Below, one piece after another: positions 30,235-46,127 of a DNA stretch of 64,000 nucleotides. Where the stretch lies: NCBI GenBank assembly GCA_013373625.1, contig JABXHM010000070.1, positions 1 to 64,000 of the forward strand. Reading direction: 5' to 3'. The DNA comes from Alteromonadaceae bacterium. Its GTDB lineage: Bacteria; Pseudomonadota; Gammaproteobacteria; Enterobacterales; Alteromonadaceae. The translations under genes were made by a program, and so were the position numbers. The notes under the pieces were generated by a model, which searched no databases, was not told the origin of the DNA, and was given only the letters and a program-made list of their open reading frames with translations. Each line of letters opens with the position of its first letter. Positions within the stretch are counted from its first letter, which is position 1.

Positions 30235-31518
30235 TTAGCCAACTTTACTGACAACGCGTTGCGCTAATTCTGCAATGCGTATGTTTTGTTCCATGGCGGC
30301 AGACTGGAGCTTTTTATAAGCCTGTTGTTCACTAATTTTAGCTTGTTGCATGAGCAACAACTTGGCGCGATCGATAACTTTTTGTTCATTTAAGGCTTGT
30401 TTGGCGGCGGCGAGTTCACTGGCCATTTCCTGAATGTTTTTTGCCTGGCCACGAATTAAGTCATAAAACGATTTATGCGCTGATATCGTTGAGCTTTCGA
30501 CTAATTCTTCCTCATGAACGTCAGCACCACGAAGACCCTGTAACGTAGAATCATAAAGCATGGTTATTGGCGCATCGGCATGCGGTGGACTGTTATTTAA
30601 CGATGCAACTAACAACTCATGGTTGCGTTGTTCTTCTTCAGCCTGCTTTATGCGTAACGCGGCCTGCTCGGTTAAGCGCTGGGTAAGATGTTCTTCTATG
30701 TCCTGCATGGCATCTATACGCAGGGTAGCAATGTCGTACCAGACTTCACTGAGTTCAGCCGCGCATTCATCGCCGTCGGCGAGGCTGCAAATCATTGAAC
30801 GTAAGCGTTCAATCTGAACGGTATGTTCGCTCTTTTGCAACTGCTGCCACATGTGCAATTCCTCAGCATCTGCAAAGTTACTGAAGGTTTCAAAGCACTG
30901 ATTTTGTGCTTCGGTAAGTGCAGAGATACGCTCACACAGTGAATGATCAAACTGACTTTCTGAAAAACCGATTGCGCCCCATGCACGCTCTTGTCCGGCA
31001 TACTCTTTACCCTGCATAAAATTAAACAGCGCTACCAGTAATCGTGTCATTGTCGGGTCGCTGGCCACATCCGCAGCCTCAAAGACCACGTCAAGTAAAC
31101 CTGCAACCAACCTGCAATAGGCATTGGTCGACTCAAGTGGCGTAAGCTGTTGAGCATTTATTTTAGTACGCAGGTTTGGTAAATGATCCATACCCTGAAG
31201 GGCAAAAGTAATGCTGCTAAGCAAGCGCATTGACTGACCATTGTCATGTTTACCAAGATAAAGAGACTTTAGTAAACTACGCAAGTTCTGTTCACTTTTT
31301 TCGCTGGCTTTTAATTGTTTTAAACGTGTATCTGCAAAGCGCTCGCCCCTGGAGCCAAGGTATACGTTACTCACTCCCCGTTCACGCTGGAGCTGATGAA
31401 TGAGATCCTTGAGTGCTTTTACTGTTCGGCAGTTTGACGACAAGTGATGCAGTGCCTGGATTTCCTGATGCTTTGCCGACAGTAAAAATCGTTTGGTGAT
31501 GTCGCTATGCTTGGCCAT
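30235..31518 (-). CDS. nasR: NIT-ANTAR transcription antiterminator (NasR-like)
   Basis: 427 aa cytoplasmic regulator. Residues about 25-300 form a nitrate- and nitrite-sensing NIT domain (conserved LIHQLQRERGVSNVYLGS, shortened: QRERGVSNVYLG), and the last 60 residues an ANTAR RNA-binding domain (three helices, KVIDRAKLLLMQQAKISEQQ shortened to DRAKLLLMQQ). In Klebsiella the homologue NasR binds leader RNA and prevents termination when nitrate is present. Divergent from the nirC-like gene, whose leader and two others in this window carry matching RNA elements. ATG at 31518 is preferred over TTG at 31578. Confidence 0.88.
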   Translation of the reverse strand: MAKHSDITKRFLLSAKHQEIQALHHLSSNCRTVKALKDLIHQLQRERGVSNVYLGSRGERFADTRLKQLKASEKSEQNLRSLLKSLYLGKHDNGQSMRLLSSITFALQGMDHLPNLRTKINAQQLTPLESTNAYCRLVAGLLDVVFEAADVASDPTMTRLLVALFNFMQGKEYAGQERAWGAIGFSESQFDHSLCERISALTEAQNQCFETFSNFADAEELHMWQQLQKSEHTVQIERLRSMICSLADGDECAAELSEVWYDIATLRIDAMQDIEEHLTQRLTEQAALRIKQAEEEQRNHELLVASLNNSPPHADAPITMLYDSTLQGLRGADVHEEELVESSTISAHKSFYDLIRGQAKNIQEMASELAAAKQALNEQKVIDRAKLLLMQQAKISEQQAYKKLQSAAMEQNIRIAELAQRVVSKVG

Positions 31519-31830: not shown

Positions 31831-31846
31831 TGGCATTAGTTTTGTA
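31831..31846 (+). promoter_or_regulatory. Sigma-54-like promoter before the nirC-like gene
   Basis: TGGCATTAGTTTTGTA: GG of the -24 element and TTGT at the -12 position with the five-base spacing TGGCAT-N5-TTGT; the -12 GC is GT here. A start near 31857 would place the 5' end just before the first leader hairpin. Two more copies of this arrangement precede nirB and nrtA. Confidence 0.65.
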
Positions 31847-31860
31847 TCTGTATTAGCAGC

Positions 31861-31906
31861 AAACCTTGACTGGTTTTTACAAACGATATTCGGATAAAGA
31901 CGTCCG
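31861..31906 (+). promoter_or_regulatory. ANTAR-type two-hairpin leader element of the nirC-like operon
   Basis: Hairpin 1: AAACC, hexaloop TTGACT, GGTTT (31861-31876). Hairpin 2: CGGAT, hexaloop AAAGAC, GTCCG (31891-31906). The second loop has A at position 1 and G at position 4, the hallmark of ANTAR RNA targets, and its 3' arm lies inside the 5' arm of the following terminator, so the two structures exclude each other. Confidence 0.75.
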
Positions 31907-31945
31907 CAACTCATTTCCATTGGAAATGGGGGCGGGCGTTTTTTT
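31900..31945 (+). terminator. Leader terminator before the nirC-like gene
   Basis: ACGTCCGC pairs with GCGGGCGT, enclosing CATTTCC/GGAAATG, followed by seven T. It lies about 65 bp before the start codon in the untranslated leader, hence an attenuator. Confidence 0.85.
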
Positions 31946-32010
31946 GTGCCTGAAATAAAGTTTGCAAAGTGTTTGTGGGTTTTTTTGATTAAACAATTAG
32001 GTGACTAAAT

Positions 32011-32874
32011 ATGGCGTATTTACTTCCTTCTGAATTTGCAACCAAAATGGTTGATGCTGGCGAGTCCAAGATTTACATGTCGACCCGGGATACATTAATT
32101 CGTGCTTTTATGGCAGGTGCAATTCTGGCACTGGCTGCTGTGTTCGCAATAACGATTGCGGTACAAACTGGGGTGTTTTTGATTGGTGCAATACTATTTC
32201 CTGTTGGTTTTTGTATGTTGTACCTGATGGGGTTTGACCTTCTCACCGGTGTTTTCGTGCTTACACCATTGGCGTGGTTAGCCAAGCGACCTGGTGTTAC
32301 CTGGCCACAGATACTGCGTAACTGGGGATTGGTGTTCCTGGGCAATTTTGCCGGTGCACTCACGGTTGCATTTATGATGTCGTTTATTTTTACCATGGGT
32401 TACAACATTGACGGCGGCGCAATTGCCACGAAAGTTGCGGGTATTGGTGAAGCGCGTACCTTAGGTTATGCAGAACATGGCGTAGGTGGCTGGTTCACCA
32501 TATTTGTGCGCGGTATGCTGTGTAACTGGATGGTGTCACTGGGCGTTGTCGGTGCAATGATTTCTACTCACGTGAGCGGCAAGGTACTGGCAATGTGGAT
32601 GCCAATCATGCTGTTCTTCTTTATGGGTTTTGAGCACTCAGTGGTTAATATGTTCCTGTTCCCATTTGGTTTAATTATGGGCGGTGAGTTTTCAGTTATG
32701 GATTATTTCATCTGGAATGAAATTCCAACTGCATTAGGTAACTTAGTAGGTGGTTTAGCGTTTACCGGTTTAACCATTTATTCAACCCATGCGCGCACGG
32801 CTCCGAAGCGTGTTATCGCAACGGGTGGCAGTAATAAAGCGGTACCCGCGGCAAAAGTGAATGATAAAGTTTAA
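32011..32874 (+). CDS. nirC: Formate/nitrite transporter (NirC/FocA family)
   Basis: 287 aa inner-membrane channel, six transmembrane helices of the FNT family. Family marks: LPSEFATKMVDAGESK at the N-terminus, GMLCNWMVSLGV in the re-entrant region, FFMGFEHSVVNMF in the last third. In a nitrate assimilation cluster it most likely moves nitrite in or out. First gene behind an ANTAR/terminator leader; the kinase-phosphatase gene follows after three bases. Confidence 0.9.
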   Translation: MAYLLPSEFATKMVDAGESKIYMSTRDTLIRAFMAGAILALAAVFAITIAVQTGVFLIGAILFPVGFCMLYLMGFDLLTGVFVLTPLAWLAKRPGVTWPQILRNWGLVFLGNFAGALTVAFMMSFIFTMGYNIDGGAIATKVAGIGEARTLGYAEHGVGGWFTIFVRGMLCNWMVSLGVVGAMISTHVSGKVLAMWMPIMLFFFMGFEHSVVNMFLFPFGLIMGGEFSVMDYFIWNEIPTALGNLVGGLAFTGLTIYSTHARTAPKRVIATGGSNKAVPAAKVNDKV

Positions 32875-32877
32875 TTT

Positions 32878-34587
32878 ATGCTAACGGTTCGCCGGGGGGC
32901 TTTCTCCGGTAAGGGAACAAAAACCATTAATCAGGACTGCCACGATGTGGCAGTGCCTGATTTTTCACGTTTAGCCACACGAGGTATGGTTGCCGCCGTA
33001 GCCGATGGCATAAGCAGCAGTCAGGTAAGTCAGTACGCCAGCGAACTGGCTGTTAGTAAGTTTGTTCGCGACTACCTGTTAACCAGTAATGTATGGTCAC
33101 CGGCAAGAGCCGCCGAGTTGGTGCTGCGCACCTTAAATACCGAATTGTATGTAAAAACCCAACACAGTCCCTATCATGAAAATCCGGATAAAGGGTATGT
33201 ATGCACCTTCAGCGCGGTGATTCTGCACCAACAGCATGCCGTGCTTTTGCACTGTGGTGACAGCAGTATTTACCGCGTTCGCGATGGTGAGGTGACCTTG
33301 TGTACCAGCGAGCACCGCCAGGCAGGCGAGGATGGGCAGTCTTATCTGAGTAACGCTTTGGGAGTTCGACCGAACCTGTCTGTCGATGTCAGTACGTGTG
33401 AGGTGAATCCTGGCGATACCTTTGTGTTAATGACCGATGGTATTGCCGAAACCGTTGCGCCGGACAGCTGGCAGGAAATACTTAACACCCATCAGGATGA
33501 TTTAGACCAATGCGCCGGGCAAATTGCTGAAGCAGCGCTGCAGGCTGGTTGTAATGATAATCTCACCGTAGTGTTGCTGAATGTGCTGGCGACCACAGAT
33601 ACACCGGCAGTCACCTATTCTGAGAACGGTTTTTTACCGCTTGTTGAAATCCCCAAACCTGGCGATGTAATCGATGACTGGTTGATACAGCGACAGCTTC
33701 ACAGCAGTGAACGAAGTCATGTTTTTCTGGCAGTGCACCAACAGCATAACAAGCAGGCCGTGTTAAAAATGCCAGCCTCTTCAATGCTTGATAATGTTGG
33801 CTTTTTAGATGAAATGGTTAAAGAAGAATGGATTGGCGCCCGTATAGAGCATGAGAATGTGCTTAGTCACTACCCCCAACCTTATTTACGCCGCACGTTT
33901 TATATTGCAATGGCTTACGTACCCGGTACGAGTTTACGCCAGTGTCGGGATGATCTTGGCGTGGTGACTGTTGCGCAAATTCGTGACTGGACCACGCAAA
34001 TTGTTAACGGCCTCACAGCGTTACACAGAAAGGGAGTGTTGCATCAGGATATCCGGCCTGACAACATTTTACTGGATGATGCTGGCCGCATTACACTGGT
34101 TGATCTTGGTGCGGCCTGTGTGTCTGGTCATAATTTTTTGCAACGCGATGAGCAGTTATTTATTCCGGGTGATTTGTTGTTTAGCGCGCCAGAGTACTTC
34201 GTGGGTGTGTGGCCAGACGAAAGCGCAGAGCAATTTTCACTGGCTGTTCTGGTGTATTTTCTGGTTAGCGGCGAGTACCCCTATAATAGTGATGTGGCAA
34301 AACAAACCAATTACGCGGGGTTACTTAAGTTGCGCTATATCACCTTGTTGCAGCGAAATGTCAATGTACCGGTATGGTTTGATGCAACGCTTAAACGGGC
34401 TTGTCATCCGCAGGCATCAAAACGCTATCCGAGTTTGTCAGAGTTTCTTTATGATTTACACCATCCTAATCCGGCGTATCGGGGAGGTGTGCCGTTGATT
34501 GAACGTAATCCGGTGCGTGTATGGCAAAGTGTGTCGGCTATATTACTGGTGTTATTGCTTTCTCTGGTAATCCTGCATTATGGATAA
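32878..34587 (+). CDS. PP2C-type phosphatase fused to Ser/Thr protein kinase
   Basis: 569 aa. Residues about 5-240: PP2C-type phosphatase with NQDC, AVADG, HCGDSS, LMTDG and GCNDN metal-binding motifs intact. Residues about 262-540: Hanks-type kinase with VLKM lysine, catalytic loop HQDIRPDN (HQD instead of HRD), DLG instead of DFG, and SAPEYF. A C-terminal transmembrane helix (about 548-566) anchors it in the inner membrane. Such fusions recur in nitrate assimilation operons of Pseudomonas- and Alteromonas-type bacteria, but the target is unknown. Starts three bases after nirC; the ATG/stop spacing implies coupling. Confidence 0.88.
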   Translation: MLTVRRGAFSGKGTKTINQDCHDVAVPDFSRLATRGMVAAVADGISSSQVSQYASELAVSKFVRDYLLTSNVWSPARAAELVLRTLNTELYVKTQHSPYHENPDKGYVCTFSAVILHQQHAVLLHCGDSSIYRVRDGEVTLCTSEHRQAGEDGQSYLSNALGVRPNLSVDVSTCEVNPGDTFVLMTDGIAETVAPDSWQEILNTHQDDLDQCAGQIAEAALQAGCNDNLTVVLLNVLATTDTPAVTYSENGFLPLVEIPKPGDVIDDWLIQRQLHSSERSHVFLAVHQQHNKQAVLKMPASSMLDNVGFLDEMVKEEWIGARIEHENVLSHYPQPYLRRTFYIAMAYVPGTSLRQCRDDLGVVTVAQIRDWTTQIVNGLTALHRKGVLHQDIRPDNILLDDAGRITLVDLGAACVSGHNFLQRDEQLFIPGDLLFSAPEYFVGVWPDESAEQFSLAVLVYFLVSGEYPYNSDVAKQTNYAGLLKLRYITLLQRNVNVPVWFDATLKRACHPQASKRYPSLSEFLYDLHHPNPAYRGGVPLIERNPVRVWQSVSAILLVLLLSLVILHYG

Positions 34588-34692
34588 ATCCATGCACCAC
34601 AAACATGCTTCTTGCTTATTTTTGGTGCGACCAATTTAAAATCAAGCGTAAATGTTAAGGCTAAGTCATTGTATTTTATAGACCGAAATCTT

Positions 34693-34708
34693 TGGCATTA
34701 TAATTGTA
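34693..34708 (+). promoter_or_regulatory. Sigma-54-like promoter before nirB
   Basis: TGGCATTATAATTGTA, same TGGCAT-N5-TTGTA form as before the nirC-like gene. About 70 and 100 bp upstream lie GGTGC (34624-34628) and GCACC (34594-34598), inverted to each other, possible activator half-sites. Confidence 0.65.
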
Positions 34709-34785
34709 TTGATGTACACATCGTCTTGATTTATACACCAGGTGTATCGGTCAGGTAACAATTTAATTAGCAATGTGCTTAAACA

Positions 34786-34797
34786 GGCAACGAAGCC
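34786..34797 (+). promoter_or_regulatory. ANTAR-type hairpin in the nirB leader
   Basis: GGC, hexaloop AACGAA (A1, G4), GCC. The 15-base string GGCAACGAAGCCCAC is identical in the nrtA leader. The 3' arm overlaps the 5' arm of the terminator that follows. A possible first hairpin (AGC-AATGT-GCT, 34769-34779) lies just upstream but is less certain. Confidence 0.7.
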
Positions 34798-34828
34798 CAC
34801 AACCATGAATGGTTGTGGGTTTTTTTTT
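34796..34828 (+). terminator. Leader terminator before nirB
   Basis: CCCACAACCAT pairs with ATGGTTGTGGG across two bases, then nine T. It lies in the leader, 23 bp before the nirB start codon, and contains an unrelated ATG that is not used. Confidence 0.88.
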
Positions 34829-34850
34829 GCCTCAAATACAGGTGAACGAA

Positions 34851-37409
34851 ATGAATCTTTCCTCACAGCAACAACGCATCGTTATTATCGGTAACGGTAT
34901 GGTTGGTCATCACTTTGTTGAGCAACTGATCAATACGAAAGCTGATTGCGATATCACAGTATTAAGTGGTGAGAGCCGCCTGGCGTATGATCGGGTGTAT
35001 TTATCGTCGTATTTTGCAGGTAAAACTGCTGAAGACTTAGCGCTTACTAACGAACAAACGTACCAGGAATGGGGCGTAAAAGCCGTCACCAATGCCTGGG
35101 TAACGAATATCGATCGTACTAACAAGGTCGTTACTACCAAAGAGGGGACGACTTACCCCTACGACAAGCTGGTGCTCGCTACTGGCTCCTATCCGTTTGT
35201 GCCGCCTATTCCGGGCAATGATCAGGAACACTGTCTGGTGTATCGCACCATTGAGGATCTCGAGGCAATCAGTGCCAGCGCCGCGCAAAGTAAAGTTGGC
35301 GTAGTGGTGGGAGGCGGTTTGTTGGGGCTGGAAGCTGCTAACGCGCTGAAACAAGCCGGTCTGGAAACGCATGTTGTCGAATTTGCGCCACAATTAATGG
35401 CGGTGCAACTCGACCCTATGGGCGGCGCACTGCTGAAAGACAAAATAGAAGCACTGGGTGTGCAGGTACATACCCAGAAAGCCACTGAGGTCATTGAGGC
35501 GGGCGAGAGCTGCCGCTATCGTATGAAGTTTGGCGATGGCTCGGTGCTTGAAACCGACTTAGTGTTGTTTTCTGCCGGCATCAGACCGAGTGATCAACTG
35601 GGCCGGGAGTTTGGTCTGGTTGTCGGTGAGCGTGGCGGTATCGTGATTGATAATCAGTGTAAAACTTCTGATCCGGATATCTACGCGATTGGCGAATGCG
35701 CACTGTGGGATAAACGCATCTATGGTTTAGTGGCGCCCGGGTATGCCATGGCACGCGCAGCGGTGGCTGATGTCACTGGGGAAGAAGGCGAGTTTGCGGG
35801 TGCCGACATGAGTACCAAACTGAAGCTCATGGGCGTTGAAGTGGGCTCAATTGGTGATGCTCACGGGCGCACGCCTGGCGCACTGGTGTATACCTACCAT
35901 AACCAACCAGAAGGCGTATATAAAAAGCTCGTTGTGGATGCCAATAAATCGCTGGTACTAGGCGCTGTACTCATTGGCGATACCAGCGATTACGATACCT
36001 TATTGCAATATGCCCTGAACAGCATTGAATTACCTGCAACCCCGGAAGCCCTGATTTTGCCGTCATCCGGTGATAAACCATTACTGGGCGCTGATGCGCT
36101 GGGCGATAGCGCTACCATTTGCTCGTGTCACAACGTGTCGAAAGGCGACATCGTCGGGGCGATTGATGCTGGCTGTTGCTCGCTGGGCGATGTGAAATCG
36201 TCTACCAAAGCCAGTACGGGGTGCGGTGGTTGTACTGCGCTGCTGAAAAACGTGGTCGACAGTGAATTGGAAAAACGCGGTGTTGAAGTATCCAAAGCCA
36301 TTTGTGAGCACTTTAACTATACCCGTCAGGAGCTCTATCATCTTATTCAGGTAGAAAAAATAGCAACCTTTGACGAGTTGCTAACCAAGCATGGTAAAGG
36401 CCTGGGCTGTGATATTTGTAAGCCGGCTGCAGCATCGATTTTTGCCTCAGTATGGAATGACTACATTCTGAACAAGCCACATCAGCCTTTGCAGGATACC
36501 AACGATACCTATTTAGGCAATATGCAAAAAGATGGTACTTATTCCATTGTGCCTCGGGTGGCCGGTGGCGAGATCACGCCCGATAAACTGATTTTGTTAG
36601 GTGAAATCGCTAACGAATATAAGTTGTATACCAAAATTACCGGCGGACAACGAATTGACCTTTTCGGTGCGCGTGTTGATCAACTTCCCGCTATTTGGCA
36701 AAAACTGGTTGCCGGTGGCTTTGAAACCGGTCATGCCTATGCCAAGTCACTGCGTACCGTGAAGTCCTGTGTGGGCAGTACCTGGTGCCGCTACGGCGTG
36801 CAGGACTCTGTAGGCCAGGCGATTGATTTGGAAAATCGGTATAAGGGATTACGGGCGCCTCATAAAATCAAGTTTGCCGTATCTGGTTGTACCCGTGAAT
36901 GTGCCGAGGCTCAGGGCAAGGATATTGGCATTATTGCGACTGAAAACGGCTGGAACTTGTATGTGTGTGGAAACGGTGGCATGAAGCCACGCCATGCAGA
37001 TTTATTTGCCACTGATCTCGATGACGTAACACTTGTGAAGTACATCGATCGGGTATTGATGTTTTATGCAAAAACGGCCGATCGGTTGCAGCGTACGTCT
37101 GTGTGGATGGAGAACCTCGAAGGCGGGCTGGACTACCTGAAATCCGTGGTCATTGACGACTCGCTGGGTATTTGTGATGAGCTTGAAGCGCAAATGCAGC
37201 ATATCGCAGACAGTTACCAGTGTGAATGGAAAACCACCATTGAGTCGCCTGAAGCGCTCAAACGCTTCCGTCAGTTTGTGAATAGTGACGAAACTGATTC
37301 GAACATTCAGTTTGTGGCAGAACGCGAGCAAATTCGTCCGGCGACCTATGCCGAAAAGAATGCTGAAAAATACGCCGCAGATAAAGCAATTCCAGTAGAA
37401 ATAGTTTAG
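34851..37409 (+). CDS. nirB: Assimilatory nitrite reductase, large subunit
   Basis: 852 aa cytoplasmic NADH-dependent enzyme reducing nitrite to ammonium. N-terminal FAD/NAD domains (IVIIGNGMVGHHF at residue 10, VGVVVGGGLLGLEAA near 148), a BFD-like [2Fe-2S] segment (CSCHNVSKGD and later CGGC, about 420-460), and the sirohaem/[4Fe-4S] domain with CVGSTWC and GCTRECAEA (about 640-690). ATG at 34851 has AGGTGAA upstream; the frame before it is the leader terminator. Followed by nirD after 10 bp. Confidence 0.96.
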   Translation: MNLSSQQQRIVIIGNGMVGHHFVEQLINTKADCDITVLSGESRLAYDRVYLSSYFAGKTAEDLALTNEQTYQEWGVKAVTNAWVTNIDRTNKVVTTKEGTTYPYDKLVLATGSYPFVPPIPGNDQEHCLVYRTIEDLEAISASAAQSKVGVVVGGGLLGLEAANALKQAGLETHVVEFAPQLMAVQLDPMGGALLKDKIEALGVQVHTQKATEVIEAGESCRYRMKFGDGSVLETDLVLFSAGIRPSDQLGREFGLVVGERGGIVIDNQCKTSDPDIYAIGECALWDKRIYGLVAPGYAMARAAVADVTGEEGEFAGADMSTKLKLMGVEVGSIGDAHGRTPGALVYTYHNQPEGVYKKLVVDANKSLVLGAVLIGDTSDYDTLLQYALNSIELPATPEALILPSSGDKPLLGADALGDSATICSCHNVSKGDIVGAIDAGCCSLGDVKSSTKASTGCGGCTALLKNVVDSELEKRGVEVSKAICEHFNYTRQELYHLIQVEKIATFDELLTKHGKGLGCDICKPAAASIFASVWNDYILNKPHQPLQDTNDTYLGNMQKDGTYSIVPRVAGGEITPDKLILLGEIANEYKLYTKITGGQRIDLFGARVDQLPAIWQKLVAGGFETGHAYAKSLRTVKSCVGSTWCRYGVQDSVGQAIDLENRYKGLRAPHKIKFAVSGCTRECAEAQGKDIGIIATENGWNLYVCGNGGMKPRHADLFATDLDDVTLVKYIDRVLMFYAKTADRLQRTSVWMENLEGGLDYLKSVVIDDSLGICDELEAQMQHIADSYQCEWKTTIESPEALKRFRQFVNSDETDSNIQFVAEREQIRPATYAEKNAEKYAADKAIPVEIV

Positions 37410-37419
37410 GAGAACTCTT

Positions 37420-37785
37420 ATGTCGACTCATATGCAGGCTCAGGCAATGCCTTCTGCCCAATGGCACGATGTGTGTCATATCGACGATTTGGTCACAAAC
37501 AGCGGCGTATGTGCGTTGGTTGAAGGGCAGCAAATCGCTATTTTCAACATTGTACAAGGTGGCGATAAGCAATACTTTGCCATTAGCAACTGGGATCCGG
37601 TAGGGCACGCGAATGTGTTGTATCGCGGTATCGTCGGCACGTTGCAGGACAAGGTGGTGGTAGCATCACCGCTGTATAAAGAGCATTACGAACTGGCGAC
37701 GGGTAAATGCCTGGAACGGGAAGACGTTAGTGTGCAGCCCTTTGCGGTGCGCATTGAGCAGGACCGAGTACTCATTGAACTGTAA
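37420..37785 (+). CDS. nirD: Nitrite reductase small subunit
   Basis: 121 aa Rieske-like partner of NirB, but as usual for NirD without the Cys/His cluster ligands. Residues about 14-118 carry the fold (DDLVTNSGVCALVEGQQIA shortened; SNWDPVGHANVLYRGIVG at the centre). TAGGAGAA precedes the ATG. Between nirB and nasA in one operon; nasA starts directly on its stop. Confidence 0.93.
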   Translation: MSTHMQAQAMPSAQWHDVCHIDDLVTNSGVCALVEGQQIAIFNIVQGGDKQYFAISNWDPVGHANVLYRGIVGTLQDKVVVASPLYKEHYELATGKCLEREDVSVQPFAVRIEQDRVLIEL

Positions 37786-40587
37786 GTGACAATACTGACT
37801 ATGACTTTACATCCGCCAGCCACTTCGCCCGATACCGCGCAAACCCGCCAGCGTTTGCTTCAGACCACGTGCCCATATTGTGGGGTCGGTTGTGGAGTGG
37901 ACGTGCTGCAAAGCGGCGGCTCGCAAGGTCGTCTGAGTCAGCTGAAAGGCAGTCCTGAACACCCGGCGAATTATGGCCGTTTGTGTATTAAAGGGACGCA
38001 CTTACTGGAAACGCTGGACCGCAACAAACGGCTGACCACACCGGTGGTATTTGGTCAGACTGCGAGTTGGGAGTCGGCCACGAATATTATTGCGGCAAGA
38101 TTAAGCAGTATCGTTGAGCAATATGGGCCGGATGCCATTGGTTTATATGGTTCAGGCCAGTTACTCACCGAAGACTATTATGTTGCCAATAAGCTCATGA
38201 AAGGCTTTATTGGTACGGCCAATATCGATACCAATTCGCGCTTGTGTATGTCATCGGCCGTGGTGGCGCATAAGCGTGCGTTTGGCGAGGATATTGTTGC
38301 TTGTGACTACGAAGATTTAGAGCATACCGACTTATTGATATTGGTTGGCAGTAACGCTGCCTGGACCCATCCGGTACTCTATCAGCGCATTGAACGGGCG
38401 AAACTGCGTAATCCAGCCCTGAAAGTCGCCGTCGTTGATCCACGTTCCACCGACAGCTGTAGTATCGCCGATTTACATATTGCTTTACGGCCCGGCTCTG
38501 ACAGTGCCCTGTATTGCGGGTTACTGCACTATCTTGCAGGCAACGGTGGGATAGACGAAGCCTTTATCAAGGCGAATACCCAGGGCTTCGAAGCGGCGCT
38601 GAACAAGGCCAGAGACTGGACGCTGCCGGCAGTGGCCGAGGCCTGCGATGTCCCCCGGACGCAGTTACAAACCTTCTATGACTGGTTTGCCCGGTTGCCC
38701 CGCGTGATCAGCTTTTTTTCGATGGGTATCAATCAGTCCACATCAGGCGTAGATAAAGGCAATGCTATTATTAACTGCCATCTGGCGAGTGGTAAAATAG
38801 GCCGGGAGGGGTGCGGGCCATTTTCAATTACCGGTCAGCCTAATGCGATGGGCGGCAGAGAAGTCGGTGGCTTATCCAATATGCTCGCGGCGCATATGGA
38901 CATCGACAACCCGGATCATCATGATACCGTTAAAAAATTCTGGCGGGCACCCAACCTGGTGACAACACCCGGATTACGGGCTGTTGATATGTTTCAGGCT
39001 GCGGCCGATGGTCAACTCAAATGCCTGTGGATTATGGCGACTAACCCGGTAGCCAGCATGCCTGACCGGGCGCTGATCGAAAAAGCCCTGACCCGCTGCG
39101 AGCTGGTCATTGTGTCTGAAACAGCGGCCAGCAACGATACGCTTAACTATGCTGATATTGTGTTGCCAGCCACAGGCTGGTCGGAAAAAAATGGTACGGT
39201 TACCAACTCTGAACGGCGAATTTCTCGTCAGCGCGGCTTACTCAACCCTGCAGGTGAAGCCAAACATGACTGGCAAATTATCAGTATGGTGGCACGCGCA
39301 ATGGGGTTTGAGGAAGCCTTTGATTATCAACACCCCTGGCAGATATTTAGTGAGCACTGTGCGTTAACCGCCGCCGATAACAACGGTAGTCGGGCGCTGG
39401 ATTTAGGCGCCTTAGCCGCGTTATCGCAAGCACAGTATGACAATCTCAGACCACAGCAATGGCCGCTGGCATCAGCACACCGGCCAGGGCGCGAGCGACT
39501 GTTTGCCGACGGAACATTTTATACTGACGATGGTAAAGCTCGCTTTATCGCTATAACGCCGCGGCAACCCGAGCAGCAAACCAGCGCAGACTATCCTTAT
39601 GTGCTCAACACCGGCAGGGTGCGCGATCAGTGGCACACGATGACCCGCACCGGCAACGCACCGCGATTACTTAAGCATATTGACCGCCCCTGGTTGAGCG
39701 TGCATCCCGAAGACGCCCTGGCACTGGAAATTGGCGAAGGTGCCTTGGTTAAATTGACCGCCGCCTGTAGTGGTGATATTGATGTCATCCTGCCTGCGCG
39801 GTTGGACAATAATCAGCGTCGTGGTGAATTATTTGCGCCGTTTCACTGGTCTGCTTCCTGGGGCTCGCATTGTAAAGTGGGGGCATTGCTCAATGGGGCG
39901 AATGATGCCTTGTCTGGTCAACCTGAATTGAAACACGGTGCGGTGCGAGCAGCGCCCTATAACGGCGCTGCCTACGGCTTGATTTTTGGTCATGCCGAAG
40001 CCGTTGATGGTTTGAAAACGGTATGCCACTACTGGCTTGATACACCTACCGAACAGGCAATGTGCGCCCAGGTGGCTGACACGGCAAGTCCCGTGCAACT
40101 GCTCAATATGTTATTACCTAAGCTGCCGGTAGATACGCAGTGGAGTTCATTCCAAAGTGACCAACAGTGCACACTGGTGGTAACCCGTAGCGAGCAGTTG
40201 GTATTGACTATCATGCTGACCACTGTACCGGTGACCGTGCCAGTTGAATGGCTTGATAGCCTGTATAACAGCAGCACCGGGCTGACTGAAGCGCAAATGA
40301 ATGGCTTGCTTAGTCAGCAACCCGATGAAGCCTTTTTGTTAGGCAACGTTGTTTGTAGCTGTTTTGGTGTGCGTGAAAATACCATTAAGCAAGCGATAAA
40401 AGAGGGTGTTCACAGCGTTACCGGGTTGGGAGAAAAGCTGCAATGTGGCACCAACTGCGGTTCCTGCAAAACAGAGTTAGCGAGTTTAATGTCTGCCTGT
40501 GCAAAGGCGGATACACCAGTGACGTCGTTGGCGAATAATATTGCTGATAAAACAACCGGTAATTCACCGGTGACAGAGGAAATTTAA
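37786..40587 (+). CDS. nasA: Assimilatory nitrate reductase, catalytic subunit
   Basis: 933 aa cytoplasmic molybdoenzyme reducing nitrate to nitrite. N-terminal [4Fe-4S] motif CPYCGVGCGV (about 30-39) then a further Cys at GRLCIKG; bis-MGD domains (SMGINQSTSG, GREVGGLSNMLAAH, ATNPVASMPD); C-terminal BFD-like [2Fe-2S] with CSCFGV and CGTNCGSC (about 855-895), which replaces a separate electron-transfer subunit. Start is GTG at 37786 or ATG at 37801. Needs MobA (encoded at 47358) for its cofactor. Confidence 0.95.
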   Translation: MTILTMTLHPPATSPDTAQTRQRLLQTTCPYCGVGCGVDVLQSGGSQGRLSQLKGSPEHPANYGRLCIKGTHLLETLDRNKRLTTPVVFGQTASWESATNIIAARLSSIVEQYGPDAIGLYGSGQLLTEDYYVANKLMKGFIGTANIDTNSRLCMSSAVVAHKRAFGEDIVACDYEDLEHTDLLILVGSNAAWTHPVLYQRIERAKLRNPALKVAVVDPRSTDSCSIADLHIALRPGSDSALYCGLLHYLAGNGGIDEAFIKANTQGFEAALNKARDWTLPAVAEACDVPRTQLQTFYDWFARLPRVISFFSMGINQSTSGVDKGNAIINCHLASGKIGREGCGPFSITGQPNAMGGREVGGLSNMLAAHMDIDNPDHHDTVKKFWRAPNLVTTPGLRAVDMFQAAADGQLKCLWIMATNPVASMPDRALIEKALTRCELVIVSETAASNDTLNYADIVLPATGWSEKNGTVTNSERRISRQRGLLNPAGEAKHDWQIISMVARAMGFEEAFDYQHPWQIFSEHCALTAADNNGSRALDLGALAALSQAQYDNLRPQQWPLASAHRPGRERLFADGTFYTDDGKARFIAITPRQPEQQTSADYPYVLNTGRVRDQWHTMTRTGNAPRLLKHIDRPWLSVHPEDALALEIGEGALVKLTAACSGDIDVILPARLDNNQRRGELFAPFHWSASWGSHCKVGALLNGANDALSGQPELKHGAVRAAPYNGAAYGLIFGHAEAVDGLKTVCHYWLDTPTEQAMCAQVADTASPVQLLNMLLPKLPVDTQWSSFQSDQQCTLVVTRSEQLVLTIMLTTVPVTVPVEWLDSLYNSSTGLTEAQMNGLLSQQPDEAFLLGNVVCSCFGVRENTIKQAIKEGVHSVTGLGEKLQCGTNCGSCKTELASLMSACAKADTPVTSLANNIADKTTGNSPVTEEI

Positions 40588-40589
40588 CC

Positions 40590-41495
40590 ATGAACATGCG
40601 ACTAAACGTTTTATCCGATGCGTTACTGCAAGGTCTGTTTCGCATTCAAAGTGCTTTTTTACGTGGTGATAAGTCTGGCAGCAGTGTTGCAGAGCCTTTG
40701 ACTAATGGTCGGGCAGGTCTTCCTGTTGGCGAAGTATTCATTGTTGGTGCGGGTCCGGGGGATGCAGAATTACTCACTGTGAAAGCTTATCGTTTGCTAC
40801 AAAGCGCTGACATAGTGTTGTTTGACTGGTTGGTGGATCAGTCTGTCCTCGATTGCATTCCTCGCCATGTCAGTAAAGAGTTTGTTGGTAAGCGTTGCGG
40901 TAAGCACAGCATGCCACAGGAGATGATTTGTCAGCGCCTGGTGGAGTTGGGGCTGAGTGGTAAGCGGGTGGTGCGCCTAAAAGGGGGTGATCCGGCGATT
41001 TTTGCCCGCACCAGCGAAGAAACCGCCGCATTGCATGCGGCGGGTATTCCCTTCGCGATCGTCCCGGGGATTACTGCAGCGTCGGGGGCGTCTGCCTATA
41101 CAGGTATCCCGCTTACCGACCGACGTTTTGCCCAGTCAGTAAAATTTATGACTGCGCAATTTAAAAACCCGCAAAAAGAAGCCGACTGGGCTTCGATTGC
41201 CAGCAGTGTGCAACGCGAAACCACGGTGGTGTATATGGGCTTGAAGCGCTTGCAGCAGTTGTCTGAGCGCTTGTTGGCAGAAGGTGTGGATACGCAGCTT
41301 CCCGTTGCAGTGATTGAGAACGCGTGTTGTAATCAGCAAAAAGTCGTTGCTGGTACAGTCAGCAATATTTATCAACACGTGGCTGACGCCGCGATTACTG
41401 GCCCTGCTTTGGTGATTATTGGCCAGGTAGTGACGGCTCGTCAGCCTATATCGGTGGATTTGTTACATCAATCCTATGCAAAAAACGCCCTTTAG
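40590..41495 (+). CDS. cobA: Uroporphyrinogen-III C-methyltransferase
   Basis: 301 aa. Makes precorrin-2, the first step to the sirohaem of NirB. SAM-binding GAGPGDAELLTVKA near residue 50, VGKRCGKH, VRLKGGDPAIF and VPGITAASGA are the family motifs; the CysG dehydrogenase/chelatase domain is absent. Residues 1-45 are an unusual extension of no known role. GAGGAAAT precedes the ATG. Overlaps the next gene by 20 bp. Confidence 0.93.
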   Translation: MNMRLNVLSDALLQGLFRIQSAFLRGDKSGSSVAEPLTNGRAGLPVGEVFIVGAGPGDAELLTVKAYRLLQSADIVLFDWLVDQSVLDCIPRHVSKEFVGKRCGKHSMPQEMICQRLVELGLSGKRVVRLKGGDPAIFARTSEETAALHAAGIPFAIVPGITAASGASAYTGIPLTDRRFAQSVKFMTAQFKNPQKEADWASIASSVQRETTVVYMGLKRLQQLSERLLAEGVDTQLPVAVIENACCNQQKVVAGTVSNIYQHVADAAITGPALVIIGQVVTARQPISVDLLHQSYAKNAL

Positions 41496-42495
41496 TGATT
41501 ACATAAAAGCCCTCGGCAAAGGTCAGCGTGGTGCCCGCCATTTAACCTTTGATGAGGCCTACGATGCCATGTCTCAGGTGCTCGACCAACATATTGCCCC
41601 TGAACAAGCCGGCGCGTTTTTAATGCTCCTGCGCATGCAGGAAGAGTCTGTAGATGAGCTATGTGGCTTTATTAAAGCGTGTCGAGAGCGTTTACCCGAA
41701 GCGCTAAATAAACTCAATGCTACCCTTGATATTGGTTGTTACGCTGGCAAACGTCGCCAGCTTCCGTGGTACTTATTCAGCGTTTCCTTGTTGGTCAGTC
41801 AGGGCTATCGGATTTTTTTGCATGGCGCTTCTGAACCTGGCTCGCAACGCTTTTATGCCAGCCATGCATTGGCCGATTTAGGTTTACCCTTAGCCTCATC
41901 TACAACGGATGCGACCAGACATATGGACGCTTACGGTACGTGTTATCTGGATTTGGGGGTTGCGCTGGCGCCGCTGGACCGCATTATCAAACTGCGTGAA
42001 TTATTTGGCCTGCGTTCATGTGCTAACACCTTAGCCCGACTGCTCAACCCGAGCGCGGCACCCTATGCGGTGCAAGGGGTATATCATACGCACCTTGATG
42101 AACGTCATGCCAGGGTGAATCAAACCTTTGCTCAGCAGTCATTGGTATTTCGGGGAGATGGCGGCGATCCGGAAGTTAATCGCGATCGTGATACCGATTT
42201 GTATGTCACCCGTGGAGGGACAACAGAGCATATCATTATGCCCGAGGCTGAAGGCTGGGCCATGAAGGAAAGAGACTTCAGCACGGCAACGATGCTGGCA
42301 GTATGGCAGGGTGAGCAACACCATGGCTATGCCGAACAGGCGGTTATTGCCACGTTGGCAGGCTATCTGATGTTGTTGGAAGGATTCAGCCAGGCAACCG
42401 CGTTGAAGCAGGCCGGGGTATGGTGGCAAATGCGCGATAAACAGGCACTACCGTTTAAACCAAAGCGCTCTGATTGTGCAGTAAATGCACTATAG
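41476..42495 (+). CDS. TrpD2/YbiB-like glycosyl transferase family protein
   Basis: 339 aa homologue of anthranilate phosphoribosyltransferase without tryptophan neighbours (YbiB/TrpD2 group, known in E. coli to bind nucleic acid). Visible: YIKALGKGQRGARHLTFDEA at the N-terminus (shown to its first 20), GAFLMLLRMQEES, and FGLRSCANTLARLLNP. The phosphoribosyl-binding glycine motif is changed (DIGCYAGKRR). It is regularly found in nitrate assimilation operons, so a role in that regulon, perhaps RNA-related, can be suspected only. Confidence 0.8.
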   Translation: MQKTPFSDYIKALGKGQRGARHLTFDEAYDAMSQVLDQHIAPEQAGAFLMLLRMQEESVDELCGFIKACRERLPEALNKLNATLDIGCYAGKRRQLPWYLFSVSLLVSQGYRIFLHGASEPGSQRFYASHALADLGLPLASSTTDATRHMDAYGTCYLDLGVALAPLDRIIKLRELFGLRSCANTLARLLNPSAAPYAVQGVYHTHLDERHARVNQTFAQQSLVFRGDGGDPEVNRDRDTDLYVTRGGTTEHIIMPEAEGWAMKERDFSTATMLAVWQGEQHHGYAEQAVIATLAGYLMLLEGFSQATALKQAGVWWQMRDKQALPFKPKRSDCAVNAL

Positions 42496-42564
42496 TGAGT
42501 CACGATTTAATGTGATCTTTTGCTGGTTAGAATTAAGTGTATGAAAAACATTAGTTTTTATTTC

Positions 42565-42580
42565 TGGCATTAAAAATGTA
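42565..42580 (+). promoter_or_regulatory. Sigma-54-like promoter before nrtA
   Basis: TGGCATTAAAAATGTA, third copy of the TGGCATTA...TGTA arrangement (TGGCAT-N5-ATGTA). The palindrome CACTATAGTG within TGCACTATAGTG (42486-42497) lies about 80 bp upstream. Confidence 0.6.
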
Positions 42581-42684
42581 TATATAAAACTGTATACACA
42601 GTATGTGTAGGGTTCGTTTAGCAATACTAACGGATCTTCAAAAATTTGTAGTTTTGCCCTTTTCATTGTTTCGGCAGAACATAC

Positions 42685-42696
42685 GGCAACGAAGCC
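42685..42696 (+). promoter_or_regulatory. ANTAR-type hairpin in the nrtA leader
   Basis: GGC, hexaloop AACGAA, GCC; the surrounding GGCAACGAAGCCCAC is identical to that in the nirB leader. It competes with the following terminator for the CCCAC strand. A candidate first hairpin is TGTT/AACA (42667-42681) around TCGGCAG. Confidence 0.7.
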
Positions 42697-42744
42697 CACT
42701 AGTTACTGATGACATCGTCATCATCAACTGGTGGGTTTTTTTTT
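42695..42744 (+). terminator. Leader terminator before nrtA
   Basis: CCCACTAGTT pairs with AACTGGTGGG, with an inner GATGAC/GTCATC stem, then nine T, 17 bp before the nrtA start codon. Confidence 0.87.
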
Positions 42745-42760: not shown

Positions 42761-44149
42761 ATGTTATCAACTAATTTAAACAGAAAGCTCAAACAAGCGG
42801 CCGGCTCTCTCACCTTTGTCGCAGCGTTGTTGACAGCATCAGTGACAGCGAATGCTCAGGACCTTGGCTGGCCAGAAAAAGAAGAGCTTAAATTCGGCTT
42901 TATTAAATTAACTGACATGGCACCACTGGCTGTCGCTTACGAGAAAGGTTACTTCGAAGATGAAGGTCTCTACGTGACGTTAGAGGCCCAGGCTAACTGG
43001 AAAGTTTTGTTAGACCGGGTGATTGACGGACAGCTGGATGGCGCGCATATGCTCGCTGGTCAGCCGCTTGGCGCCACCATAGGTTTCGGGACACAGTCTC
43101 ACATTATTACCGCGTTCAGTATGGATTTAAACGGCAACGGCATTACCGTATCGAATGATGTCTGGGCTGAAATGAAAAAGCATATTCCTCATGAAAATGG
43201 CCAACCCGTGCATCCCATTAAAGCTGATTACTTAAAGCCTGTCGTGGACAGTTACAAAAATGCCGGTAAGCCATTTAAGATGGGGATGGTTTTCCCCGTT
43301 TCGACGCATAACTATGAATTACGCTATTGGTTAGCTGCCGGCGGAATTCATCCTGGTTACTACGCGCCGCACAAAGGCGATACCTCTGGCCAGATTGATG
43401 CCCAGGCCCTGCTATCGGTTACACCGCCACCGCAAATGCCAGCGACCATGGAAGCGGGCACTATCTACGGTTATTGCGTCGGTGAACCCTGGAACCAGCA
43501 AGCGGTATTTAAAGGTATAGGTGTACCGGTTATTACCGATTACGAAATTTGGAAAAACAATCCGGAAAAAGTATTTGGTGTAAGCAAGCGCTGGGCAGAA
43601 GAAAATCCCAATACCCATATTCGCGTGGTGAAAGCGATGATCCGCGCCGCCATGTGGCTTGATGCCAATAACAATGCGAACCGTCCGGAAGCGGTGAAAA
43701 TCCTTGCGAAAAGCAGTTACGTTGGTGCTGATGAAGACGTCATCGCTAATAGTATGACAGGCACCTTTGAATACGAAAAAGGTGACAAGCGAGACGTTCC
43801 TGATTTTAACGTTTTCTTCCGTCACAACGCGACATACCCCTATTACAGCGATGCTATCTGGTATCTCACACAAATGCGTCGCTGGGGGCAAATTGCTGAG
43901 CCCAAGTCTGACGACTGGTTTATGCAAACCGCAAAGAATGTATATCGTCCTGATATTTATACCCAAGCAGCGAAAGCGTTGATTGCTGAAGGTTTAGCGG
44001 ATCCGAAAGATTTCCCTGATTTTGATTCAGAGACGGGCTTTAAACCCCCGCAAACAGAGTTTATTGATGATGTGACATTTGATGGTACTAAGCCAAATGC
44101 CTATCTCGAGCAATTTTCAATTGGCCTAAAAGGCGACACGGTTCTTTAA
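42761..44149 (+). CDS. nrtA: Nitrate ABC transporter, substrate-binding protein
   Basis: 462 aa, exported with a signal peptide (about 1-33, ending ANAQ). CmpA/NrtA family: [20 protein letters not shown] just after the signal (20 residues), [21 protein letters not shown], and [11 protein letters not shown] in the second lobe. Binds nitrate (or nitrite) in the periplasm for NrtB/NrtC. First gene behind the third ANTAR leader. Confidence 0.93.
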
Positions 44150-44178
44150 CCGTGCGCATCAAACGATGAGTAAAGACG

Positions 44179-45171
44179 ATGAGTAAATCGGTACAAGTGG
44201 TCAGCCAGATTGGCCAGCTACGCGGAAAAAACATGCTTACAAACGTTGCTTCAAGCTTACCAAAACTACTCATGCCACTGGTTGGGATCCTGTTATTTTT
44301 AGCGGTCTGGAATGGCGTCGCAAAATCGATTGATACCTCGCTGGGACAGTTTCCCGGGCCGGTGCAGGTGTGGGAGCAGAGTATTACGCTGCTGGATGAA
44401 CATAATCAGCAGCGTGAAAAGGCTGGCGCATTTTATGAACGTCAGGAAGAGCGCAATGCTAAACGTGTTGCGCAGGATCCGGGGTATGTTCCAAAAATCC
44501 GCGAATTTACGGGCGCGCCAACGTTTTTCGATCAAATCTGGACCAGTCTTTATACGGTAATGGTGGGCTTTTTAATCGCCAGTGTAATTGCGGTGCCTGT
44601 GGGGATTTTATGCGGCTTAAGCAAATCAGCGTACGCGGCGATGAATCCTCTGATCCAGATATTTAAACCCGTTTCTCCGTTGGCCTGGCTTCCATTGGTA
44701 ACAATGGTCGTCAGTGCCCTTTATGTCAGTGACGACCCAATGTTTTCTAAGTCATTCATTACCTCTGCCGTAACAGTGTCATTGTGCTGCCTGTGGCCAA
44801 CCCTGATTAATACGGCGGTGGGTGTATCCAACATTGATTCTGACCTGGTAAATGTAAGTAAAGTATTGCGGTTAAAGCCCTTGAGCCATGTGCAAAAAAT
44901 TGTATTGCCAGCGTCAATCCCCATGATTTTTACCGGCTTGCGTTTGTCGCTGGGTATTGGCTGGATGGTACTTATCGCGGCTGAAATGCTGGCGCAAAAT
45001 CCGGGCTTGGGCAAATTTGTGTGGGATGAGTTTCAAAACGGTAGTTCAGAATCGCTGGCCAGAATCATGGTCGCAGTGATCACCATTGGTATTATTGGTT
45101 TTATGCTTGATCGTCTGATGCTTGCGCTTCAGCGTTTCGCAAGTTGGGATAAAAATTCGGTGCTGCGCTAG
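44179..45171 (+). CDS. nrtB: Nitrate ABC transporter, permease
   Basis: 330 aa inner-membrane permease of the SsuC/NrtB type. Six hydrophobic segments; the EAA-like cytoplasmic loop near residue 225-245 (SKVLRLKPLSHVQKIVLPAS, 20 residues). A polar insert of about 60 residues follows the first helix (EQREKAGAFYERQEE region), usual for NtrB proteins. A duplicated ACGATGAGTAAA lies at its start (44164 and 44177); the second ATG is in frame, the first opens only a 6-codon frame. Confidence 0.92.
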   Translation: MSKSVQVVSQIGQLRGKNMLTNVASSLPKLLMPLVGILLFLAVWNGVAKSIDTSLGQFPGPVQVWEQSITLLDEHNQQREKAGAFYERQEERNAKRVAQDPGYVPKIREFTGAPTFFDQIWTSLYTVMVGFLIASVIAVPVGILCGLSKSAYAAMNPLIQIFKPVSPLAWLPLVTMVVSALYVSDDPMFSKSFITSAVTVSLCCLWPTLINTAVGVSNIDSDLVNVSKVLRLKPLSHVQKIVLPASIPMIFTGLRLSLGIGWMVLIAAEMLAQNPGLGKFVWDEFQNGSSESLARIMVAVITIGIIGFMLDRLMLALQRFASWDKNSVLR

Positions 45172-45198
45172 CAGTGTTGCTGAAACGAGGAATCTATT

Positions 45199-46047: not shown

Positions 46048-46127
46048 TTAAATATTACTAAACAAATAGTTAGCTCGACCTTATGAGGTTGGGCCAGGAT
46101 ATCTCACGCTCAATTTAGGAATTTATC

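Follow-up and report, generated by a model that had tools for sequence, protein, structure and literature searches.

What gates transcription of the nitrate assimilation genes in a marine, Alteromonas-like bacterium is the question raised by a 64,000-nucleotide stretch of its 5.09 Mb genome (contig JABXHM010000070.1; hereafter the window). Here, the gene for a protein with NIT and ANTAR domains (30235-31518, minus strand) lies opposite a plus-strand nitrate assimilation cluster of three units, the nirC, nirB and nrtA units, each headed by a promoter and a leader module. An interpretation made from the letters alone (the sequence-only reading) had proposed a three-member ANTAR antitermination regulon with sigma-54-like promoters. 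Our analysis points to a NasR-type regulon with single-hexaloop leaders as the best explanation, and a likely one. The published ANTAR motif has two hexaloops, in hairpins P1 and P2, each with A at loop position 1 and G at position 4 (A1/G4) (PMC3369931, PMC7496416, PMC8164766).

One hexaloop over each terminator

The promoter, the P2 hairpin and the intrinsic terminator of each leader lie at the following positions.

31831-31847, plus strand: sigma-54-like promoter of nirC (-24 GG at 31832-31833, -12 GT at 31844-31845; inferred start ~31857)
34693-34709, plus strand: sigma-54-like promoter of nirB (inferred start ~34719)
42565-42581, plus strand: sigma-54-like promoter of nrtA (inferred start ~42591)
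31891-31906, plus strand: P2 hexaloop hairpin of nirC, CGGAT-AAAGAC-GTCCG, loop 31896-31901
34786-34797, plus strand: P2 hexaloop hairpin of nirB, GGC-AACGAA-GCC, loop 34789-34794
42685-42696, plus strand: P2 hexaloop hairpin of nrtA, GGC-AACGAA-GCC, loop 42688-42693
31899-31945, plus strand: intrinsic terminator overlapping P2 of nirC
34795-34828, plus strand: intrinsic terminator overlapping P2 of nirB
42694-42744, plus strand: intrinsic terminator overlapping P2 of nrtA

In all three leaders, the 5' arm of a U-tailed terminator contains the 3' arm of P2. A scan of both strands of the window for an A1/G4 hexaloop with an overlapping terminator returned only these three sites, and the same scan gave 5 matches in 1.19 Mb of sequence shuffled in 100-base blocks. 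A first scan with stricter terminator rules had missed the nirC leader, and the rules were relaxed once. The recurrence of one module before nirC, nirB and nrtA, as described in the sequence-only reading, is borne out by three exact promoter matches and three hexaloops over terminators, with nothing else in the window. Its account of one A1/G4 loop per leader (AAAGAC, AACGAA, AACGAA), placed in this way over the terminator, also stands, the single loop being the unusual part. Its statement that promoters and leader scale agree holds for the promoters; the scale is similar only roughly, at ~89 (nirC), ~110 (nirB) and ~154 nucleotides (nt; nrtA) from the inferred sigma-54 start.

The comparison set consisted of 40 places from 39 genomes within the window's GTDB family, plus 80 named loci. 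"Alteromonadales" denotes the loci of this family together with Alteromonas-like and Pseudoalteromonas named loci, assigned by record titles. By NasR, the nearest named loci are Alteromonas lipolytica, A. oceani, A. alba and Marisediminitalea aggregata at 77-78% identity, a comparison that may omit the window's own records. Some relatives lack the cluster, with L123, L134 and L135 showing nasR alone. Where the cluster is present, P2 is the best-conserved part of orthologous leaders. In the window, the terminator is the stable fold of each of the three leaders (z -5.7 to -6.3). The P2 loops retain A1 and G4, and P2 of nirB and nrtA also has the C:G closing pair of the NasR consensus obtained by systematic evolution of ligands by exponential enrichment (SELEX; PMC7496416).

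The sequence-only reading had looked to hairpin covariation in relatives, and this was found. Among 26 aligned P2 and terminator sequences, 83.5% of cells in the P2 helix are paired, with 11 cells changed on both sides, and 87.6% of cells in the terminator helix are paired, with 52 changed on both sides; for each helix, 0/500 shuffles came up to this. When the partners are slid by 1-3 columns, pairing falls to 19-44%. P2 and the terminator are mutually exclusive helices, and compensatory change is present in both.

The three sites could be ordinary terminators or attenuator relics without regulation, with hexaloops by chance; the stems are short (three pairs in nirB and nrtA) and the loop rule is simple. 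We regard this as extremely improbable, given exactly three sites in 64 kb, each between a promoter and a gene of one pathway, and a module repeated with covariation in orthologous and dispersed leaders across tens of genomes.

A search with the ANTAR RNA covariance model, as suggested in the sequence-only reading, found no counterpart in Rfam: at gathering and relaxed thresholds there was no ANTAR-like match in the window, with weak, sub-threshold, chance-like matches over the leaders, two of them at nirB. A covariance model of P2 and terminator was built instead from the leaders of the window and its relatives, whose window matches are thus by construction. A degenerate P2 pattern searched genome-wide was uninformative, returning the nirC leader and 3 unrelated places, below its reversed control (12).

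With regard to initiation, TGGCATTANNNNTGTA occurs exactly at 31831, 34693 and 42565, with no further exact match across the genome. The pattern TGGCATTA-N4-TGTA has exactly three occurrences there, and read backwards 1; it was derived from the three sites themselves, and the genome count is not an independent test. In each of the three window promoters, TGG at -24 and G at -12 stand at the set distance. An element of sigma-54 type (TGG-N10-G; scored as present at 8.5 or more) is found in 91/97 Alteromonadales leader rows (nirC 25/26, nirB 50/50, nrtA 16/21), and in 384/4850 shuffles. Rows stand for leaders that differ in upstream sequence; L078, L088 and L122 enter twice, their P1 also counted as P2, and in a few rows (L038, L041 and others) the best-scoring match may fall inside the leader. 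The -12 dinucleotide is GC in all 31 rows from other taxa. The window TGTA appears to be a degenerate -12. The TGTA had raised the suspicion that TGGCATTA..TGTA is a non-sigma-54 element, which was dropped, as relatives carry TGGCAT-N5-TTGC at the equal place. Separately, GT, GG or GA at -12 (31844, 34706 and 42578 in the window) would represent a clade-specific promoter weakening in Alteromonadales.

Both rpoN and ntrC are encoded in the genome. NtrC sites follow a TGCACC-N5-GGTGCA-like consensus. Sites with at least 9 of 12 matching positions precede 24/25 nirC, 46/50 nirB and 8/16 nrtA promoters, against a shuffle mean of ~7 for the best match; NtrC-like sites are above shuffle level upstream of nirC and nirB, not clearly upstream of nrtA. 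At the window nrtA, the best site has 8 matching positions, equalled by 30% of 50 shuffles. The leaders may depend on sigma-54 and NtrC. The sigma-54-like elements, the two regulator genes and the sites at nirC and nirB fit the RpoN/NtrC initiation claimed from the sequence alone; NtrC control at the window nrtA is unproven.

From this anatomy, we infer the following sequence of events. Sigma-54 RNA polymerase would start a short leader before nirC, nirB and nrtA, and before cynS on another contig, and by default the intrinsic terminator would end the transcript. On binding of nitrate or nitrite by the NIT domain, dimeric NasR would bind the A1/G4 hexaloop of P2. With the 3' arm of P2 forming the start of the terminator's 5' arm, P2 held in this way would block the terminator, and transcription would continue. 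The first hairpin, which has lost its hexaloop, and the single-stranded ACAAU word that often follows it might serve as a spacer, a pause or a second contact.

The first hairpin and its ACAA linker

Upstream of P2, the window leaders contain the following elements.

31861-31876, plus strand: nirC leader, first hairpin AAACC-TTGACT-GGTTT, whose loop of six bases lacks A1/G4
31879-31882, plus strand: ACAA linker word of nirC, starting 13 nt 5' of the P2 GGAT arm
34725-34755, plus strand: first hairpin of the nirB leader, from folding
34758-34768, plus strand: ACAATTTAATT linker element of nirB
34769-34779, plus strand: weak hairpin directly 5' of P2 of nirB, with a non-A1/G4 loop (the fold of the 48 nt upstream of P2 is no more stable than that of shuffles, z +1.4)
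42651-42680, plus strand: hairpin 5' of P2 of nrtA, GTTTTGCC...GGCAGAAC, 14-base loop

The linker between P1 and P2 in the dual-hexaloop motif measures 2 to 25 nt (PMC8164766). In none of the three window leaders was a second A1/G4 hexaloop found up to 75 nt from P2, where a stem of three or more pairs including a G-C pair was required. Canonical P1 was present in 3/94 Alteromonadales leaders versus 25/29 others in a first count. After model-found leaders had been added and near-copies filtered out on ungapped identity alone (120 leaders left from 193), the figures were 4/74 versus 26/46, at shuffle rates of 1.5% and 4%; with a C:G closing pair also required, they were 2/74 versus 20/46. Fisher's p of 4e-10 for this contrast ignores kinship and is not readable as a probability. 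The others include model matches down to 17.6 bits (34/42 used), not each checked to precede a nitrate gene, and omit matches without a hexaloop and weak ones below ~17 bits, including L054, which has a canonical P1.

In Alteromonadales nirC leaders, the first hairpin lies mostly 11-19 nt upstream of P2 and its loop has mostly four to six bases. In nrtA leaders, the hairpin predicted by RNAfold ends 0-4 nt from P2 in 21/21, with highly diverse stems. The predicted loops span 3 to 14 bases overall, with no common sequence in nrtA and nirB, and the mean folding z of the first-hairpin region over all leaders is -1.0 (nirC), -1.7 (nirB) and -2.5 (nrtA). These stems were picked by RNAfold and are paired by construction, which leaves only their position and varied sequence as informative. 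A common loop rule for the nirC first hairpins (pentaloops such as GUAAU and UUAAU) was sought, and none was valid for all. The TACAC...GUGUA hairpins of the window nirB and nrtA leaders were dropped as a common operator, their sequence not being kept in relatives.

These observations bear on a more conventional explanation, an ordinary dual-hexaloop NasR leader whose first hairpin is still recognised despite its non-A1/G4 loop, through induced fit or tolerance of pentaloops and larger loops; the mechanism would then hold nothing new. A hairpin is indeed predicted 5' of P2 in most leaders, most nirC loops have four to six bases, and the loops of the L122 and L141 nirC leaders and the L052 nirB leader pass the canonical test. 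We nevertheless consider it unlikely. The predicted loops vary as described, and the 4/74 with canonical P1 is close to the shuffle level. In published work, eutP induction dropped significantly when A1 or G4 was altered in either of the two loops (PMC3369931), and the arginine that touches the flipped G4 of P2 in EutV (Arg142, aligned with NasR 340; PMC8934654) is changed in the window protein. The comparison suggests that NasR here works from a single hexaloop.

Counts of 5- and 6-mers in the 60 nt 5' of P2, made with no prior choice of word, ranked ACAAT (29/70, 9.3 expected) and ACAATT (18/70, 3.5 expected) at the top. In nirC leaders, ACAA lies 8-18 nt from P2 in 18/20, compared with 4% of shuffles. 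Outside Alteromonadales, ACAA occurs in 12/20 leaders without canonical P1 versus 4/26 with it; the former include Alcanivorax, Saccharospirillum, Marinobacterium and one distant genome (L168).

The NIT-ANTAR protein and the reach of its regulon

The candidate effector is encoded as follows.

30235-31518, minus strand: nasR-type regulator, NIT and ANTAR domains, 427 amino acids (Pfam NIT 1.8e-55, ANTAR 1.4e-15)

It is the only ANTAR match found in the genome, and matches Klebsiella oxytoca NasR (4AKK, E 7.5e-41) and EutV (6WSH, E 3.4e-5); NCBIfam gave no match for it. Residue numbers were counted from 4AKK, with R340, W362, R366 and N373 and the NIT partners E191, R193, Q194 and D201 falling on the correct letters. 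At the RNA-contact positions, the window protein has Gln340, Tyr362, Gln366 and Asn373; 362 (aromatic) and 373 agree with K. oxytoca NasR, while 340 and 366 differ. These differences make an identical mechanism less likely and do not touch membership of the family. Arg340 has been described as near-universally conserved in NasR, with R340A losing binding and antitermination and R340K binding ~tenfold less (Goodson et al., PMC7496416); R340A and R366A each abolished RNA binding of the K. oxytoca protein (PMC7496416).

The change is general in the group. Position 340 is Gln (59) or His (10) in 69/69 readable Alteromonadales rows and Arg in 59/59 other readable rows, and position 366 is Gln in 66/69 versus 3/60; the rows include duplicates, as named loci and genomes overlap, and 75 distinct rows (31 Gln/His, 44 Arg) entered the tree. 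E175/R176 of the nitrate site are unchanged in every row, and Alteromonadales NasR retains Met370, Lys347 (all rows but one) and Tyr, His or Phe at 362. The NIT partner positions are S, C, E and E in the window protein and vary widely in other taxa too.

In the tree, the Gln/His group forms one clade (100/99). Beside it, each on a long branch, stand Saccharospirillum and Alloalcanivorax, and the fork there is open. Arg340 is retained in L062 (Saccharospirillum) and L065 (Alcanivorax), whose leaders nevertheless lack canonical P1 and contain ACAA. The simplest order is that the P1 hexaloop was lost first and Arg340 later. Few intermediates were seen among the leaders compared (L055-L059, L062, L065, L068, L077). 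A broader idea, which we offer tentatively and with some doubt, is a second mode of ANTAR-RNA antitermination: marine gammaproteobacteria would have swapped the P1 hexaloop for a hairpin-ACAAU linker, a single hexaloop sufficing for nitrate-dependent read-through, and Alteromonadales NasR would then have lost Arg340 and Arg366, with the NIT-ANTAR lock rebuilt on other pairs.

The covariance model also identified leaders beyond the window. In the genome, the three window leaders ranked first (50-56 bits), followed by C22:45794-45847 (35.2 bits) on a different contig, which carries TGGCATTGTTAATGCTG, the word ACAA, a tetraloop hairpin and P2 GGGT-AAAGGC-GCCC over a terminator. The gene behind it is cynS, encoding cyanase (TIGR00673, 2.8e-51). 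The regulon of three members proposed earlier is thus too small, and it includes cyanate use because a NasR-type leader precedes cynS; cyanate use appears to come under nitrate control in this clade. The NasR-type leader before cynS (L179:1420-1558) recurs in five relatives (L217-L220, L224).

Genome matches were inspected down to E 0.28. The fifth (33.9 bits), before recC, was rejected as a NasR leader, as it has no A1/G4 hexaloop over a terminator and occurs also in genomes that gave no NasR match; the five matches that follow (E 0.005 to 0.28) were rejected for lack of the hexaloop. Among genus genomes, 48/59 have model matches at E 1e-3. In the 32 searched both ways, NasR and leaders co-occur throughout: 24/24 with a NasR match have model matches at this threshold, and 0/8 without. 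We also chose 20 places apart from the usual leaders, one of them in this genome and 19 in relatives: 5 lie before cynS, 8 before an unlinked nirC and 3 before a NarK-family transporter gene, 3 are copies of a small-RNA locus and 1 is a plain terminator (L226, discarded). Gene identities at these places were read from open reading frames (ORFs), with family searches for one nirC (Form_Nir_trans, 3.2e-64) and one NarK (TIGR00886, 4e-97).

The terminators might instead be gated without NasR, for instance through RNA folding by itself or through a different protein that binds ACAAU and the first hairpin, with the NIT-ANTAR protein acting elsewhere or failing. In favour of this, the clade has replaced Arg340 and Arg366, both needed by the K. 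oxytoca protein to bind RNA, and the conserved ACAAU calls for an explanation. We judge it improbable on three grounds: the A1/G4 hexaloop is kept in dispersed cynS, nirC and NarK-type leaders despite drifting neighbours (partly by selection, since leaders were found via the hexaloop or a model containing it), the E175/R176, Met370, Lys347 and 362 residues noted above are conserved in Alteromonadales, and NasR and leaders co-occur in 32/32 genus genomes. Antitermination by the NIT-ANTAR protein, as the sequence-only reading had it, is supported as the best reading by the sole ANTAR match, the covariation and this co-occurrence; it does not follow the canonical dual-hexaloop form, and its NasR lacks Arg340 and Arg366.

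Several points weigh against a single-hexaloop NasR regulon. In the sigma-54 consensus, C follows the -12 G; this C is absent from all three window promoters, which have T, and mostly absent in relatives, where GC occurs in 32/91 scoring Alteromonadales rows and GT, GG or GA in the rest. In the covariation analysis, two measures do not exceed shuffles: the count of pairs altered on both sides (P2 228/500, terminator 65/500 as high) and, for P2, the further pair types (485/500 as high). The three P2 pairs of nirB and nrtA are invariant, and the P2 covariation is carried by nirC leaders, where AGAC/GTCT replaces GGAC/GTCC, and by the contrast of nirC with nirB and nrtA. ACAA is absent from the window nrtA leader, 13/28 nirB leaders and 4/16 nrtA leaders. 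The changes at 340 and 366 could equally mean weak RNA binding by the clade's NasR. Co-occurrence of NasR and leaders could reflect loss or retention of the whole cluster, although the dispersed leaders fit it as well. The protein and RNA changes map to one clade and count as one event, which is suggestive and not proof of coevolution. Finally, both hexaloops are needed for EutV antitermination in vivo (PMC3369931) and NasR binds P2 alone ~tenfold more weakly (PMC7496416), so a single-hexaloop leader might work poorly.

The units behind the three leaders contain the following genes.

32011-32874, plus strand: nirC, formate/nitrite transporter family (Pfam)
32878-34587, plus strand: PP2C phosphatase/Ser-Thr kinase fusion, nirC unit (Pfam)
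34809-37409, plus strand: nirB ORF as listed from the first start codon
37420-37785, plus strand: nirD, Rieske-type small subunit (Pfam)
37786-40587, plus strand: nitrate reductase-like molybdoprotein, assimilatory (nasA/nasC) (Pfam; below every NCBIfam cut-off shown)
40590-42495, plus strand: tetrapyrrole methylase and TrpD-like glycosyltransferase, close of the nirB unit (Pfam)
42761-47342, plus strand: nrtA, nrtB and nrtC-type ABC transporter genes and a porin-like gene, the unit behind the third leader

The phosphatase/kinase fusion gene, which sits between nirC and nirB, is kept beside nirC in many relatives. The listed nirB start at 34809 falls within the terminator, and an in-frame ATG at 34851, past the terminator and behind AGGTGAACGAA, is the likely start.

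Outside the window, the locus upstream of the recC-type gene (G000:C32, ~56806-56954, plus strand; L234:207-355; L180) resembles a conserved small-RNA transcript. One copy is present in 50/59 genus genomes (up to 3 mismatches; reversed pattern 0), including genomes without a NasR match (G068, G278, G320, G344). A TGG-N10-G sigma-54-like element lies 123-125 nt before its loop in 21/21 loci read. It has a long 5' hairpin with GCCAGGCAAC, a terminator-hairpin loop UUUUCGUGUCCUGAG invariant in 16 aligned copies, and compensatory changes in 26/40 predicted pairs. By eye, the loop is complementary to AGGACAC ahead of NarK-type gene starts (L231-L233). Rfam gave no match up to E 0.5, and a literature search on the locus found nothing. 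That it is a nitrogen-regulated antisense RNA is a guess.

Comparison with known systems

Whether an ANTAR dimer uses one or two hexaloops is disputed: in vivo experiments and SELEX favour two (PMC3369931, PMC7496416), and the EutV-RNA structure, which redefines the minimal ANTAR target as one hexaloop, points to one (PMC8934654). A single-hexaloop reading agrees with the structural redefinition and conflicts with the results on EutV in vivo and with the ~tenfold weaker binding when NasR is given P2 alone. Native one-hexaloop leaders, paired with a NasR that lacks a near-universal, essential residue, make this question directly testable, and the textbook rules for the family may not be general. 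The published actinobacterial search accepted only paired stem-loops whose loops have six nucleotides (PMC8164766), a rule that would miss these leaders; the P2 and terminator model detects them. Among the papers listed by our literature searches, which were blunt because "antar" also matches "Antarctic", none dealt with regulation by ANTAR proteins in Alteromonas or with their control of cyanase. The tables of Ramesh et al., where nitrite reductase and nitrate transporter matches are reported, may list some of these leaders. In the text available of two Alteromonas nitrate papers, the terms nasR and antitermination are absent; one of them (PMC4899447) describes competition of Alteromonas with diatoms for nitrate in culture. 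The cyanase leader would widen the nitrate regulon to cyanate use.

Transcription of nasF in K. oxytoca is initiated under Ntr and sigma-54 control. As published, the NasR-nasF system shares with the present one a NIT-ANTAR regulator, nitrate assimilation genes and a terminator overlapped by an A1/G4 hexaloop hairpin (PMC7496416). It differs in having two hexaloops, P1 and P2, and a NasR with Arg340 and Arg366, whereas the present leaders, at least four in number with that of cyanase, have a single hexaloop and the protein has Gln at 340 and 366.

The EutV-eut system of Enterococcus faecalis likewise has several ANTAR-gated leaders per locus and a P2 hexaloop inside the terminator (PMC3369931, PMC8934654), but requires dual hexaloops in vivo and uses a response-regulator sensor with ethanolamine as the signal. 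Bradyrhizobium diazoefficiens NasT is also an ANTAR antiterminator with more than one target (PMC6759348); sensing there relies on the NasS-NasT two-component arrangement, in contrast to the fused NIT domain here. The NIT-ANTAR family is the same in Pseudomonas, Variovorax, Xenophilus and Azoarcus, whose dual-hexaloop leaders likewise have a sigma-54-like element and a P2 (for example GGAC-AAAGGC-GTCC) overlapping the terminator. Unlike the leaders described here, they carry a canonical P1 (for example GCATCC-AACGGC-GGATGC or CCCGA-AACGAA-TCGGG), and their NasR keeps Arg340.

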